From: Pseudophaeomoniella oleicola
Lineage: Eukaryota > Ascomycota > Eurotiomycetes > Phaeomoniellales > Phaeomoniellaceae
Reading direction: 5' to 3'
DNA: 64,000 nucleotides
Assembly: GCA_003868215.1 (NCBI GenBank)
Contig: QWDQ01000001.1
Coordinates: forward strand, 1-64,000
The notes below the pieces were generated by a model. It ran no database searches and was not told where the DNA came from. It worked only from the letters and a program-made list of their open reading frames with translations. This document shows positions 39,623 through 47,733 of this stretch, one piece after another. Made by a program: the position numbers and the translations under genes. Within the stretch, counting starts at the first letter, position 1; the number at the start of each line of letters is the position of its first letter.

Positions 39623-40870
39623 TCATACCTTGGCCTTCTTCTCCAATAGATCCGCCAGTTCGTCGACGTCCTTGTCTTTCTTCTCTGCAACGGTTTCGTC
39701 TTCTTCTTGATCGGCCTGCTTCAAGATCGTTTCTTGTTCTTCCTCTTCTTCTTCCCCTTCCTCCTCGTCTTCTGGCTCGCTGTCTTCACCTTCAAGCTCA
39801 TCGAGCTCATCTAGTCCCCAGTGATCCTCAGGATGCTCCTCCTTCCCAAATTCTTCTTTCCGGTCTGAGAGCAGCTCGGAAATTGCCTCAATGTTGGGAT
39901 CTTCTTCATCGAATTTGTTGCCGTTGAGCTCGATTCTTCTGCCATTTGGTAAACCTTCTTTGAGCGCTGTGAGGAGAGCTACCAATCCCTTTGGGTCGAT
40001 GTCGTTGTATTGTAGTCGTAGGATCTCGAGAGCCTTGTTTTGTCCTTTGGCCAATTCTTCAAAGACCTTCACGGCCCCACGAGCGCCAAGCAGATCGTCA
40101 CCAACACCGAGCTCTTTCAGACCCGTCCAATTGCCAATTACTTGTGCCAACGCCGTTGCGCCTTTGAGAGTGAATGTGTTATCTTGCATGTCAAGGACTT
40201 CAAGATCTTTGCAACTCTTCAACCCCTCCTTGAGAAGATGACTGATACCTTCTTGTCTGATACCATTCTGAGTCATCTTCACGCTCTTCATGCCAGATGA
40301 GTGCGCTTGGTATGCCTTTGCCCATGCTGCCATGCTGCCATTTTCCAATCTATTTCTGCCGCAGACTATACTCTCAAGATCGGGAATGTCTTTTCCTGTC
40401 TTTCGTACTTCGGCCTTGCGCTCGGCAAGGAGACTAAGAGCATCCGCTATTGATGTTCCCGCAATAGGACCCATACCATTATTATTGAGGATGAGATGAC
40501 GTAGTGGGGTGTGCTTGCCGAGGAAGTCAACAAGCGGGTCTTTTGTGTTGAGCCCGAAAGCATTGTCGCTCAAGTCGATTGTGTGAAGTTTTGGACATTC
40601 CAACAGAGCGGTCAGTAGAGCCGACAATGCAGGAGGGATTTCTTCGAGTAGGCGGGAGGTAAAAATGTCATGGAGATCGATTGATTCGAGAGATTTCTGA
40701 GAAGATAGAAGGGGCGCAAGCGCTTCACTGGCACCCACACCAAATGTGTTGCCCGAGAGATCGATGTGTTTTATTTCAGTAGACTCTTTCAAAGGACCAA
40801 TGTGTGTCTCGAGGTCGGCGGCCGAATCGAGCTTGAGACCCTTGTTCGCAAGGGAAAAGGTGCCCGCCAT
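39623..40870 (-). CDS. rna1: Ran GTPase-activating protein Rna1
   Basis: RanGAP stimulates GTP hydrolysis by Ran on the cytoplasmic side and so drives directional nuclear transport. The 415 aa form a leucine-rich-repeat crescent (IKHIDLSGNTFG, LHTIDLSDNAFG, LRHLILNNNGMG, LEVLDMQDNTFT, LEILRLQYNDID, GRRIELNGNKFD) and then a strongly acidic C-terminal tail of about 60 residues. HDIFTSRLLEEIP matches the loop that carries the catalytic Arg in S. pombe Rna1 (here about R73). It is a single exon with the start at the first ATG. Confidence 0.95.
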   Translation of the reverse strand: MAGTFSLANKGLKLDSAADLETHIGPLKESTEIKHIDLSGNTFGVGASEALAPLLSSQKSLESIDLHDIFTSRLLEEIPPALSALLTALLECPKLHTIDLSDNAFGLNTKDPLVDFLGKHTPLRHLILNNNGMGPIAGTSIADALSLLAERKAEVRKTGKDIPDLESIVCGRNRLENGSMAAWAKAYQAHSSGMKSVKMTQNGIRQEGISHLLKEGLKSCKDLEVLDMQDNTFTLKGATALAQVIGNWTGLKELGVGDDLLGARGAVKVFEELAKGQNKALEILRLQYNDIDPKGLVALLTALKEGLPNGRRIELNGNKFDEEDPNIEAISELLSDRKEEFGKEEHPEDHWGLDELDELEGEDSEPEDEEEGEEEEEEQETILKQADQEEDETVAEKKDKDVDELADLLEKKAKV

Positions 40871-41517
40871 AGTTGACGAGATAATAGGTCACTTGTTGTA
40901 CTTGGATGTCTCGATGACAGATTGGTTGACTTTCGGTTTCGCCAATATTCTGTTCTCAGAAAAGAGACCAAATAGCAGAGGTGGTTGTGGTTCTAGATCG
41001 TATAAATTGGCCCTTTGAGACAAAGCGACTTGTTTACTTCACTCTCCTTGCCCCGCCGTGGGACCGACATTTTTTTGGGCACCGGTGAGGAGGAGGAGGG
41101 GGACTGACGATTCTATTGAGGGTCAAATCTATTTAATTATTGTAATCCTGCTGGCCCCTGATTCTTCGCTACAATCTACAAATGCAACCCCTCCAGGCAT
41201 CATAAGATCCTCCAGTATATATGATATAGCGAGAACACTGGATATGTGAACCCCACCCATGATGATGGCCAGATCAAATGCAGATAAGAATAAACACAGT
41301 GCTTTTTGCTAACCCAGATCCGTTAATGCTTGGTTGTAGTACAGAATCAGGGGCCGACTTTATCGACTTGATATGACAGATAACTGAAGTCCGGGGGGAC
41401 ATGCGATCTTACTAGAGCCATCTAGATACGAAAGCTCGATATCTTAGATGATTCACAGTATAGTGTCTTTCCTCAAGGCTCGATATACAGAGACCTCACC
41501 AATGATGCTAGAGATCA
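40871..41517. other. Intergenic region rna1/CHAT gene
   Basis: This 647-bp stretch upstream of rna1 and downstream of the CHAT gene marks the left edge of the accessory island. No gene, terminal repeat or transposon end is recognised. Confidence 0.5.
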
Positions 41518-43697
41518 TCAGAAGAGAGAAACGGTCCTGGAGACCTTTTCACTTTCTGGAGTCCATGTAAAGCCCGATTTTGGTGCAAACTCCGTGAGAG
41601 CCGCATTTCTGAGGACCTTGCATTTCCCCAGGTTTGTGTTGAACCAATCCTTAGCCCCTCTTTTGCCACAGACTCCGACGAGAACCAGGTACGGTCTGTC
41701 TTCTCGTCGGTCAGGATCGAAGTGCTCTTCGAGCCAGGCTTCCAGTCTCTCTTGTGCTCGTGTGTGGTATGGCAACTTCTCCGACTCTCCAGGGTATAGT
41801 CGAGTTACGCCCTCCACAATGACCACCGAGGCTGTATCGCTGCTTGAGCTTCGAAGTCGAGATCCAAGTCCATAATACCAAAGCTGGCATGTATGCATCA
41901 ACGATTCTCTCGCATCTCGCTCCAGAAACCATTCCGCCGGGATCACCACACAGCGATTGATGAACTTCGTCCGTATCCAGACGTCTGTGAATATCTCGAG
42001 CAAGCCAAGCAAAGCATTGGGCTGGCTTATCCGAGCAGTGTTGGGGGTAGTGTGGAAGAAGACAACGCGCCGTCGTTTGAGATCACTCTCTATCCTCAGC
42101 ATATTCTTACGATCCTGCCGGTGTTCTTCAAGACGCGCCCGAAACCACGAGAGCCGGTGTTCTTGGAAAGCGATGCGCAGGGGGAAAAGCACAAATGGTG
42201 TTATGCAGTAAGAGCTTTTAATAATGGTGGTGAAAGTCTGACTGGGCATGGCGAGTAGACCATTGAACAGGTGTTTGAATACCCAGTGTGCAACAGCGTA
42301 GAAAACAAGTATTATAACGGCTTGGACCAGAGACAGTGGTCTGATAAATGATGGCCATAGATTGAAAAGTCGGAACAGCCAACTTGGATAATCCGCAGGG
42401 GGATCAATATAGAAACGTCTGCCGTTTGAGTACACCACTGGAACAAACCAATCCTGTATCTTGACATATTGGCGGCAGTTATAGTTCCACCGTTCTCGGT
42501 CTTGAAACAACCGGAGACGTGCCTTACTGGCAGCTTCGGCGAATTCTCCATGTCGCAAGAAGAGCTCCTCGTAGAATGGCGTATAAAACTTCTGTGATAA
42601 GCTATCGGGAACATTGTAAGACATTGCAAGGACATTTGAAATGCCGTGATTCACGAATTTCCAGCTGAGGTTAGCATCTATTCCAGTATCTGCTCGGGCA
42701 GTCTTGCACGCGCTGAGGACTGCACATTCGATGCCATGGTTCTTGAGGAGGATGGCGAGATCGTCCGCCTCTGTTTTGACTGTCTTCAGTCTATCCTTTG
42801 TATCGTACTGATTAAATTCAAGGAACGCTGTCCCGTCATCCCTGTAAAAGATCAGCCATGTGAGTCTGACCATATGGCAGCTACTCACGAGATGCCTCCA
42901 TGCATGTCGAAATGTACTACTTTGAAGAACCCAGGGCCGGACACATCAGTCCGACGGTCCAGATGATTTCTCAGCTCTTCAGAGCTTCCGGGGCGGACCA
43001 CTTCGAGATGTATCTCTTGATACGAATCTCGCTTTCGGAGAGTCTCCTGAATTTCGAGGATTGCACATTGGATGGTCCCAGGACTGAGGACATCCGGATT
43101 ATTTTCATGGACGTATCGCCGGGCCACAACCAATAGGACGTTGAATGATTCTTTCCAGACTAACCCTACACGACGTGATTTGGATCGCTGCGGTATGCGA
43201 CGTCCACAAGGGCTAGGAGATGAAATGAGGCGCTTGACAGTGACAGCAGTCGGTTTGTACAACCGATCCAAGTGCCACAGAGATAGATCTTCTAGATGCT
43301 CCCAGTGAAGGCTGTGTATAGACTTCGAAACATAGTTTTGGCCTTTCCTCCCTGCGTACGTGCATGTATCACAAACGCTGATACTGATGCGGGCCCCATC
43401 AAAGATCTGTAAGTCTGGAATTTCTAACGATTGAAAGAGATCAATACGGTATTTGTCAATGCTTTTTGATCTCTGGGTGAGTAAGTCCAAATCGACATAA
43501 AGAGACCTCAAACAGCGATCTAGATAGTCTTTACAGTGTTGATACTGCAAATTGTCAAAGGGATCGGTGATCAACCTCTCGTCGCTGAGAGCAGTGCCAT
43601 TGATGCAAATTAGAATCCTCCATCTCTGCTGATCAATTAGAGCATGCTCTGCGATTGTCTGTTCCAAGATGATCTCGACGCTGTTCTGGAGGTTCAT
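41518..43697 (-). CDS. CHAT-domain cysteine protease with membrane segment
   Basis: CHAT proteases are caspase/separase-clan enzymes that in fungi often act as effector domains of NLR-like proteins. Exons are 43697-42889 and 42841-41518 (710 aa); the 47-nt intron lies just after the catalytic His motif. Seen: a CHAT domain from about residue 185 (FNVLLVVARRYV, LEVVRPGSSEELRNHL), VVHFDMHGG with catalytic His at about 266, and AVLSACKTA with catalytic Cys at about 315, so both active-site residues are present. After the domain (VPVVYSNG at about 403) comes a hydrophobic helix at about 440-462 (LVQAVIILVFYAVAHWVF) and a weaker one at about 475-495, then a 215-residue cytosolic-looking tail of unknown fold. 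There are no TPR repeats. It is divergent from the next gene. Confidence 0.82.
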
Positions 43698-44405
43698 GAA
43701 GGTGACGGAGCCCCAATAGACCGTTCTTCAAGAGACCTTTTTGGACAGAGACCTTCTTGGACAGAGACCTTCTTGGACAGAGACTCAACTTTCTGACAGT
43801 CTTCCATGTTCGATCGTATATATCACGTTGACTCCGCTTCACTGTGCACGAATCATTTCGGGGAGATAGTGATGCAAGCCCCATTTGATAGTCTGCGGCT
43901 CGTTACGACCCTGCTTCTTACAGGGGATAGCAATAGCGTTGACGCCGCTGTAAAGAAGCGAGTTCATTGGTTCGAGTCATCACATCCTTGTACATGTAAG
44001 ACAGCCCCAACCAGCCACTCCAATAGCGATGCTTTGGCCCCTGAGTGCTGGAGTTTGCCTTATGACATCGTTTGCTGCCTTGCTATAAATCGGAATGGCA
44101 AAGCCCATGGAGGCGCAGCGCCATGGAATTATCACGACAGCTTATTGACCATGTATAAATTTCTCGCAAAGGAGCAGAGTGATTCGGGATAACCATCTTC
44201 TAATCCGACTCTTAAGACGTCGGATCAAACCAATGAAGCCGCTGTATTTCCAGCATCGTCTATAAATACTTTACCTCATCGACTGCTCAGGAAATATAGG
44301 AGCCAAATACCCACCAAGTCCAGTCAAGAATCGTATTAAGTTCGTCGGAACATTCATACGACCCCGGAAAGAACATCGGAACGTTGCCTTGTGGAGGGTG
44401 AAAGC
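43698..44405. promoter_or_regulatory. Divergent control region of the CHAT / unknown-protein pair
   Basis: This 708-bp stretch lies between start codons that point away from each other. It includes the 16-bp tandem repeat next to the CHAT gene. A 128-codon plus-strand frame inside it has no recognisable content. The geometry would allow joint control of the two genes. Confidence 0.45.
43731..43778. repeat. 16-bp tandem repeat in the CHAT gene 5' region
   Basis: Three adjacent copies of AGAGACCTTCTTGGAC, the first with one mismatch, plus a partial fourth. They start 34 bp upstream of the CHAT start codon and so probably lie in its 5' leader or core promoter. Confidence 0.9.
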
Positions 44406-45446
44406 ATGTCGCATCATCGAAGCAGTACGGACGTGCCGTCCGAAGATGCCTCCTATATCATCCTCGAAGCTCCCGTCAGCGGGGAGCGCAAGCGCCGGAT
44501 ACTGGGCAGCGTCATTCCCTCAGCATACGTGACCAATCCTTTTGCACATTATCGCCCTAACTGGAAGGATCCTGCTCTCGAAAGAAACAAAACGGATTTA
44601 GCAGACCTGGAGAAACTGATGACAAGCTTGTCAGAAGAGAAGGAAGCCGTGGAGTTGACAGACTTGACGACAGGGAAAGTTGGCAACAAAGCAACAAATT
44701 CGGCAGCAAAGCTCACAGACTTGTTCAAAGCGTACGCCAAGCTTGCAACTTCTCAAGAAGTGACTATAACAGCAGGCAAGGCCAGACGTTATACCTTTGA
44801 CAATCCTGGCGCCGATTTACAAGACCGTCTATTCCAATCCAACTCCTGGAGATCGCAAGTGCAAAAGCTGATCAACGAGCTCAGATCGAAGCACAAGCCG
44901 ATGCTCTATCTGGTCACAGGAGTTTTCGTGTGCAGCGACATTGAGGTGACTTGGAAACGGAACTCAGATACGACTGCAGGTGCTGGGGCGGCACTCAATC
45001 CCGAGACTGTCATGGGCAATCCAATGCCGCTCACTGGGGACAAATTGAACGCTGAGTTTGTTATTGACCATAACCGCTCGAATCACAGAGACGTGTTCGC
45101 AAAGTCCAAAGCGGAAGTCATCTTTGCTGTTTCGTACAGTATTCTGGAGTATGAGTATGAAGTTGATCCTGCAGCTCCTCCTCCAAGCACCTCTTCCAGG
45201 ATCCTGCAACGGATCGGCATCGGAAAGAAAGCTCATGTACCAGGGACCATCAAGTCGGTCTGGCTTGGAGCACCGATTCGGGGACAGGGGATCGACCCCT
45301 ATGCAGGTGAGGACTCTCCCGTGGAATCGACCAACAGCCAGGAGTCATATAATTTTGCCTACATCCCGCCTCAGTACGTCGTCGCTGGAGAGCATAATGC
45401 CAACGGGGGAGCATCGTCAGAACAAACGAACGGTAATACACACTAA
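44406..45446 (+). CDS. Fungal accessory protein, possible gasdermin-like pore former
   Basis: A 346-residue single-exon product of a family I remember as widespread hypothetical proteins in fungi; I cannot name it firmly. Seen: an N-terminal block RKRRILGSVIPSAYVTNPF, an acidic/basic middle, WRSQVQKLINELRSK (about 148-162), then PMLYLVTGVFVCSDIEVTW (about 165-183), a Gly/Ala-rich stretch, and AKSKAEVIFAVSYSILEYEY (about 232-251). The order of a helix, a strand reading LYLVTGV, and a later strand followed by a short C-terminal region is reminiscent of the gasdermin N-terminal domain. The divergent CHAT-protease neighbour is the known genomic partner type of fungal gasdermins. That link is inference. 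The start is the ATG at 44406; the frame extends 5 codons upstream only from GTG. Confidence 0.6.
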   Translation: MSHHRSSTDVPSEDASYIILEAPVSGERKRRILGSVIPSAYVTNPFAHYRPNWKDPALERNKTDLADLEKLMTSLSEEKEAVELTDLTTGKVGNKATNSAAKLTDLFKAYAKLATSQEVTITAGKARRYTFDNPGADLQDRLFQSNSWRSQVQKLINELRSKHKPMLYLVTGVFVCSDIEVTWKRNSDTTAGAGAALNPETVMGNPMPLTGDKLNAEFVIDHNRSNHRDVFAKSKAEVIFAVSYSILEYEYEVDPAAPPPSTSSRILQRIGIGKKAHVPGTIKSVWLGAPIRGQGIDPYAGEDSPVESTNSQESYNFAYIPPQYVVAGEHNANGGASSEQTNGNTH

Positions 45447-45707
45447 GGACTATCATGCCATTTGGGTTGGAGTTTGGTTAGGTCATGCGATATACCCTTT
45501 CTTATTTACGAAAAGCCATCTATATTTGCGAGAAATGTTTCAAGGACTGTCTTCCCAAGTCGTTAAAATACATACAATATCATATCATATCAATTGTTCA
45601 AGACAAAGCGGCAACTTACGTAGTTTAGATGAAATCGTATCTCATTAATCGGATATTCTACCTAACTGCTCAGGGTAAGTATGTATGTGCTTTGCCGTGA
45701 AACAGAC

Positions 45708-47733
45708 TCAGGCTTCCTGAAGATATTCTAGGACTCGCTTTTCATTCTTCCACTCCTCCAACAAGCTGTGCAAATCCTTGTTTCTTCCATCATCCCGGTA
45801 AACACTGGCCAGCTCGGCAATCACCCGAGTGGCGCGTTCAATGTCATCCAAATCACCGTCTGGCCCTGACTTTTGCCCGCTTTCGTTCCTTTGCCGAGGC
45901 GCTTTATTGGCCTCAACCTCTTCGTGGTCTACTTCCACCGACTCTCTCAACAGTCCCTGGTTTAGAAGTATGGCTTTTCGTCTTCGAAGGATGATTTCAT
46001 ATTCCTTCGCTGCACTTTTCAAATCTCCCTGTCCACGATATGTCATCGCTAAGTTCTGCATCGCTCTTAGGGTATCTTCATGACTGTCGCCAAGAAACTT
46101 CTCCCTAGACCCGATCACGTTGTGATACAGCTTCTCAGCTTCCGCATACTTCCCTTGAAGGTTGTACAGAGAAGCAGCCTCTGCCATGGCGCTCAAGGTG
46201 TCTGGATGATGCCTTCCAAGTCTGCTATATCGAACAAGAGTCACATGAAGTAGATACTTTGTGGCTTCAGCGTAGTGACTCTGGGACAGTGTAACCTCGG
46301 CCAGTTGGATGAGAACTTCAATCGTGCGGGTATCACATATGCCGTATGCTTCTTGTAAAGCTACGAACAGCCGCTTGTATAGCAATTCTGCTTTGTCAGG
46401 CTCTCCCTCTTTGACATAAACTGCTGCCAGTCTGTTCAAAATCTCAAGTGTAAACGCATCGTTAACGCCATTGAGCTGTTCGCAGCGCTTGAGCCCATTC
46501 TTGTAATACTCGATTGCTTCGTTCCACTGCTGCTCGCGTGCACACATCGATCCTTCAAATACCAGTTCTTTGACAGACCGATCTTTGATCTCTTCAATAT
46601 GCACTGTAGTAACGTTATACTTGCTCGGAGCGTAATGAGGTTCCTTCGATGTTTCCATGGCCTCTTGTGATACCAATGCGGGTAAAGGTGACGGTAGCTG
46701 AGCAAGGTCGCCAAAATAGCGACCACAACGCTCGTCGGCATTGCGTTCTTCGCGACGGCATTGCAAGATACACTTAGCTACTTCCTGATAGTCCCGATCT
46801 TTGGGGGTCTCGAATTTGACTAGATTGACATGGCTTCTTTCCGTGAAACGGTGCTTATACCAGCGTCGAACAGGAGCAGTCCCTCCATAGTCAGGGAGGA
46901 CGATATTTTCTGGAACAATCTGACTTCGGTCAGTAACGTGAGCAACGTCTTCAAGATACATAGCTACTGACCCAGATTGAGGACGACTTGTCTTTCTTTG
47001 CGGTCCTTTCGCCCTCAAAAAAGCAATGGTTCTGGAAGAGCGATTGGATACTTTTGTATCTTTCATTTTGCAGAGTAAACAATTCGCCCTGTCGCTCCAG
47101 AGGTTGGGATAGAAGTTTCTTCGGGATATCGGTTGTAGCCTCCACAATCCTATTCAATACTTCCTTCCATCCACGTCCTTTATCGCCTTGCGGAGTGCCG
47201 AAGAAAAGAACCCCGATGGTGCTCAATTGAATCGCTTTAAATGCGCGTTCTTTTTCGCCAACAGAGGTACTCGCGTTCACAAGTGCATGCTTGACGATCA
47301 GCCCACCCAAGCTGTGGGCAATGAAGATGATCGGCCTGTGCTCAATCTCTTTCGGCCTTTTTCGCGCAATTACCTCGATCAATTGGTTCGCATGCGCGTG
47401 CAATGTCTGTGTGAGGTTCTTTGCAGCCCACACATCGTCTGCCCGATAACCGTACGTCAGAACGCGCGCATCAGGCACATCTTGACGTATGAAATCAGCT
47501 ATCCAGTTGACGCTTCTACCCCGCGTCTTCGTCGTCCACGTCTCTGAAGCATCTCCACCGATGCCGTGGACGCAGACTATATCCAGGCTTGGGCTGCGTC
47601 CTTCATAGACGGTGCTTAAACCTTCCGTACTCAGAATCAATCTCCGAAGTAGCGATGCATATAGCGATTGAGCGAAGCCGATAGCATCCGCTGCAACTGC
47701 TACCGCACCTATAGATGCTCCGATAGTTGCCAT
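45708..47733 (-). CDS. Alpha/beta-hydrolase (lipase-like)-TPR protein
   Basis: This looks like a fungal NLR-type protein without its nucleotide-binding core. Exons are 47733-46972 and 46919-45708 (657 aa). The 52-nt intron has GTCAGT, branch ACTGAC and CAG; a downstream donor would add four residues. Seen: a hydrophobic N terminus (IGASIGAVAVAADAIGF), an alpha/beta-hydrolase of the DUF676/serine-esterase type with VCVHGIGG (about 53-60) and FIAHSLGG with nucleophile Ser at about 141, a linker IVPENIVLPDYGG and ERSHVNLVKFE, then kinesin-light-chain-type TPR repeats from about 370 to 575 (NEAIEYYKNGLKRCEQLNG, AEAEKLYHNVIGSREKFLG and similar) and a final helix. It is convergent with the unknown gene, with 261 bp between the 3' ends. 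Confidence 0.8.

Follow-up and report, generated by a model that had tools for sequence, protein, structure and literature searches.

The locus and its CHAT protease gene

The stretch of DNA considered here, referred to as the window, comprises 64,000 nucleotides (nt) of Pseudophaeomoniella oleicola (assembly GCA_003868215.1, contig QWDQ01000001.1, positions 1-64,000, forward strand). Our analysis centers on two of its genes, one encoding a protease of the CHAT type and the other, divergently transcribed, encoding a candidate gasdermin that we designate P0001. Gasdermins perforate cell membranes, and gasdermin-mediated cell death is common to animals, fungi and bacteria. A gene for a hydrolase-TPR protein lies on the far side of P0001, tail to tail with it and 261 nt away. 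An initial annotation of this DNA had grouped the three genes as a single module, and all of them were found where it had placed them (Table 1).

Table 1. Genes and intergenic region of the window, and the divergent gene pair at the second CHAT locus (C22)
Feature	Position	Strand	Basis or remark
LRR protein gene (left neighbour)	39626..40885		
CHAT protease gene, 710 aa	41518..43697	-	gene model and Pfam
Intergenic region between the two ATGs, 708 nt	43698..44405	.	sequence read
Candidate gasdermin P0001, 346 aa, intronless	44406..45446	+	single-exon frame; P0002-family hidden Markov model (HMM)
DUF676 alpha/beta hydrolase-TPR gene, 657 aa	45708..47733	-	gene model and Pfam
C22 CHAT gene, 1149 aa from first ATG	C22:224092-220646	-	His and Cys motifs found
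P0002, 303 aa, single exon	C22:224450-225361 (stop included; L006:3451-4362)	+	divergent from C22 CHAT gene

The start codons of the CHAT gene and P0001 are 709 nt apart, and the region between them presumably holds both promoters. Three tandem 16-nt TCTCTGTCCAAGAAGG-like units (43733-43780) are found within this region, upstream of the CHAT start codon.

The CHAT gene consists of two exons (43697-42889 and 42841-41518) separated by one 47-nt GT..AG intron (42888-42842); its model starts at the first ATG in frame, and further exons upstream are possible. The encoded protein matches the Pfam CHAT domain (PF12770) over amino acids (aa) 213-401, with an E-value of 3.3e-13 and 50.1 bits against a curated cut-off of 24. 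It contains both an HFDMHG motif (His266 of the model) and a SACKTA motif (Cys315), whose His and Cys we take to be the catalytic residues of a predicted protease, so that the CHAT protease with intact His and Cys described in the initial annotation is borne out. In addition, the protein shows one strong hydrophobic segment at aa ~434-459, where mean hydropathy reaches 2.1, followed by ~250 aa in which Pfam finds no domain above cut-off. Pfam also detects no TPR, WD40, ANK, NB-ARC or other repeat or nucleotide-binding oligomerization domain-like receptor (NLR) domain anywhere in the protein. Together, these features point toward a CHAT protease that is predicted to be anchored in the membrane. 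This predicted architecture, with a membrane segment and no detected repeat or NLR domain, is unusual; for CHAT proteases that partner gasdermins, passages of two reviews name repeat or NLR domains (PMC10197012, PMC12881547). In sequence searches, the protein matched no PDB chain up to an E-value of 10, and its second exon matched only itself in its own genome up to an E-value of 1.

A second CHAT locus and its relation to P0001

The genome of P. oleicola (26.1 Mb in 112 contigs) contains at least three matches to CHAT that exceed the cut-off: one at C22 with 94.4 bits, that of the window with 44.3, and one at C71 with 19.2, or 26.5 with its neighbours. The last falls in a 2128-aa frame, a length from which we take it to be a putative separase. 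The protease encoded at C22 cannot be aligned by BLASTP with that of the window; CHAT is the only domain seen by Pfam in the 1031 of its 1149 residues that were scanned, and the label "CHAT-TPR" considered for it was dropped on these grounds.

As in the window, the CHAT gene at C22 has a divergent neighbour, P0002, the two ATGs being 358 nt apart, and this pair is flanked by genes for an RPB3-like protein and a phosphomannomutase. P0002 has 18 database homologues, of which the four named ones come from Trapelia and Xylographa, both of them lichen fungi; in the literature library consulted, a full-text search combining gasdermin and lecanoromycetes returned no paper. By sequence, P0002 matched none of the gasdermins in the PDB. 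The structure model of the P0002 family, whose input included one sequence from beyond the stated sources of the modelling tool, is of moderate confidence (predicted local distance difference test, pLDDT, 60), and a Foldseek comparison of this model with the PDB returned gasdermins at all of ranks 1-18, the first 14 being Neurospora RCD-1 (best E-value 4.6e-4). In the VIA structure list of the family, cystatins and cholesterol-dependent cytolysins come after the gasdermins. On this modelling evidence the P0002 family is predicted to have the gasdermin fold, and its extension to Trapelia and Xylographa suggests a gasdermin-like family conserved in other fungi.

The reading frame of P0001 has a codon score of 0.111, compared with at most 0.024 in the five other frames. 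No homologue was found among 5.8 billion proteins (3094 word-sharing candidates, 0 passed), nor in a denser search of the same proteins with aa 150-255 (24 word-sharing candidates, 0 passed), and its only match in its own genome was to itself, with no paralogue. The HMM built from the P0002 family gives P0001 a score of 10.7 bits over aa 82-246, in a match that is collinear over ~165 aa, and 1 of 50,000 shuffles of P0001 scores as high. The similarity persists when P0002 is taken out of the profile (11.4 bits, a value once more equalled by 1 of 50,000 shuffles), and the reversed profile gives -1.2. Among the 242 open reading frames (ORFs) of at least 80 aa in the window, the P0001 frame ranks first with 10.5 bits and the next reaches 2.6; among 653 ORFs of at least 60 aa at ten other loci of the genome, P0002 alone exceeds 3.8 bits.

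Several results weigh against a gasdermin identity of P0001. The initial annotation had proposed profile-profile comparison and structure prediction as checks on all three proteins, and for P0001 the former gave no support: when P0001 alone was compared with the P0002 family, hhalign returned a probability of 0.4% and a P-value of 0.16, in an alignment that spans largely the same stretch as the HMM match. BLASTP of P0001 against P0002 gave nothing convincing, and 4 of 500 shuffles scored as high in a pairwise Smith-Waterman alignment of the two. RCD-1 was not reached in PDB searches with the P0002-family profile, nor with a profile including P0001 (alignment A3, in which P0001 joins 17 of the 19 A2 rows, with P0005 and P0017 left out). 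P0001 itself had no match in Pfam up to an E-value of 10, none in PADLOC, and none by sequence in the PDB, and it showed no direct match to a known gasdermin. As for structure prediction, the single-sequence model of P0001 has a pLDDT of 31 and is unusable, and what this check did provide is the P0002-family model with gasdermins as its closest structures.

These negative results would fit a P0001 that is a fast-evolving CHAT partner of another fold, be it a substrate, an inhibitor or an effector, with a profile score due to chance or composition. We consider this unlikely in view of the rarity of such a score among shuffles, the absence of a score with the reversed profile, the collinearity of the match and a genomic arrangement like that of P0002. 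Another account, in which the genes are unrelated neighbours brought together by chance, draws on the fact that adjacency alone is weak evidence; it appears very improbable, given that a divergent neighbour accompanies two of the three CHAT genes detected in the genome, its ATG lying at a distance of 358 nt in one case and 709 nt in the other, and that both neighbours are tied, by membership or by score, to a single family.

P0001 is, in our judgment, likely a gasdermin. Its profile score to the P0002 family, together with the gasdermin-like model of that family, makes it most likely that a further CHAT-gasdermin pair, strongly diverged, is present in the window; such pairs are an established type of death module in fungi. 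The gasdermin-like look that the initial annotation gave to its unknown protein stands at the level of a profile relation to a family whose fold is predicted to resemble that of gasdermins, a relation that hhalign does not support; likewise, the proposed placement of a CHAT protease beside a gasdermin-like protein gains support from the same divergent arrangement of P0002 at C22. Neither claim is proven.

The case of P0001 suggests that position beside a CHAT gene can reveal a diverged gasdermin when sequence search fails. The Pfam Gasdermin model had no match in the P. oleicola genome up to an E-value of 10. If the observation is general, many fungal gasdermins would be unannotated and could be found beside CHAT genes. 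Genes for subtilisin (S8) proteases were considered as alternative partners and set aside: the 10 kb read around each of their four matches, in three places, contained no ORF with a score to the P0002 family, although such a scan may overlook gasdermins that have diverged as far as P0001.

The hydrolase-TPR gene and other neighbours

The hydrolase-TPR gene has an intron at 46971-46920, with ACTGAC near the 3' end of the intron, and its protein matches DUF676 (E-value 1.7e-7) and TPR_12 (E-value 3.9e-26) in Pfam. These domains and the adjacency of the gene are in keeping with the proposal of the initial annotation that all three genes form one module, in which the hydrolase-TPR protein, as an upstream NLR-like receptor or an additional effector, would engage the CHAT protease and the latter would then cleave the gasdermin; moreover, part of a survey lists DUF676 and Abhydrolase_6 as domains found at the N-terminus of fungal NLRs (PMC9815663). 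Nevertheless, a three-gene module of this kind is unlikely. Of the 26 Pfam matches of the protein up to an E-value of 1, the 25 that were listed included no NB-ARC or NACHT domain, and the gene stands tail to tail with P0001 rather than divergent from it. Beside the C22 pair, with its RPB3-like and phosphomannomutase genes identified on the flanks, no hydrolase-TPR gene was seen by eye among ORFs of at least 130 aa in 20 kb. Relatives of the hydrolase part occur at C18, C23 and C35, and the 10 kb read around each of these matches contains no ORF scoring against the P0002 family, a scan that could miss a gasdermin diverged like P0001. With no counterpart seen at C22 and no P0002-family ORF found at the other three places, adjacency is the sole reason to include the gene in the module of CHAT and P0001. 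Such membership is therefore unsupported, and the gene most likely belongs to the wider NLR-like repertoire and is here as a neighbour of the ordinary sort.

Near the hydrolase match at C18, a 964-aa open frame (L018:5637-8528) has by eye the look of an NLR-type NTPase, with the P-loop GEAGTGKT. To the left of the CHAT gene, the LRR protein is consistent with rna1/RanGAP, in agreement with the rna1 flank named in the initial annotation. The window opens, at the start of the contig, with a run of CTA triplets (1-77), a simple repeat at an assembly break.

Proposed mechanism and comparison with known systems

Our findings allow us to propose, with a probability of roughly 0.7, that the CHAT gene and P0001 constitute a two-gene fungal gasdermin module, in which a CHAT protease of the caspase-like type has a pore former as its substrate. 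The observed basis of this proposal is the order of the genes, the His and Cys motifs of the protease, the profile similarity of P0001 to the gasdermin-like P0002 family and the arrangement at C22. The P. oleicola genome would then carry two likely CHAT-gasdermin pairs, with proteases of 710 and 1149 aa.

In such a module, the CHAT protein would be held at the membrane by its single predicted transmembrane segment, and a signal received through its N- or C-terminal region would switch the protease on. Within P0001, the stretch that matches the profile (aa 82-246) is the putative pore-forming core, and the tail of ~95 aa that follows is the putative inhibitory, cleavable part. The protease would cut the linker that follows the core, at about aa 250-285; the loss of the C-terminal tail would free the core, which may then oligomerise in the plasma membrane and lead to cell death. 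Both the cleavage of P0001 and the formation of pores are proposed by analogy with the CHAT-TPR/gasdermin pair of Podospora anserina, as outlined in part of PMC12881547. Candidate triggers include incompatible fusion, a virus or another insult. One of the two idiomorphs at the hetB heterokaryon-incompatibility locus of Aspergillus fumigatus is, according to a section of PMC11138114, a gene for a predicted CHAT-domain protease. By this analogy, a role of the window pair in allorecognition is plausible, though unproven.

Somewhat short of even odds is the further proposition that the locus offers a new control part, namely a membrane-anchored CHAT protease lacking a repeat or NLR sensor, along with a gasdermin missed by sequence search and, elsewhere in the genome, a second pair with a conserved gasdermin.

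Among known systems, bacterial gasdermins resemble the window in that genes for a pore former and a protease lie together, as stated in part of PMC10197012, and they provide further structural matches of the P0002 family; they differ in being anti-phage systems of bacteria, and P0001, P0002 and P0007 had no match in PADLOC. RCD-1 of Neurospora crassa is the best structural match of the P0002 family. It acts, however, through the meeting of two allelic variants and without proteolysis (PMC12881547, in part), whereas P0001 is longer, is paired with a protease gene and has no sequence-level match to RCD-1. In the HET-Q1 and HET-Q2 system of P. anserina, a gasdermin is switched on by a protease whose gene occupies the same locus, as is predicted here from the genes. 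In that system, by the account in sections of PMC12881547, the protease HET-Q2 is subtilisin-like, of the serine type, and the two genes are idiomorphs, whereas the window has a CHAT protease and both genes stand side by side in one genome.

The two-gene clusters of fungal gasdermin and CHAT protease described in passages of PMC10197012 and PMC12881547 are differently equipped, in that a membrane segment is predicted in the window protease, in which no TPR, WD40, ANK or NB-ARC domain was detected, and its gasdermin candidate has no homologue found by sequence. They share with the window the neighbouring genes for a CHAT protease and a gasdermin-like protein, the latter a candidate here; provided that P0001 is a gasdermin, its protease gene lies well inside the 10 kb by which such clusters are recognized. 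The window pair would then probably be an inbuilt switch for cell suicide, of a type that other fungi are known to possess.
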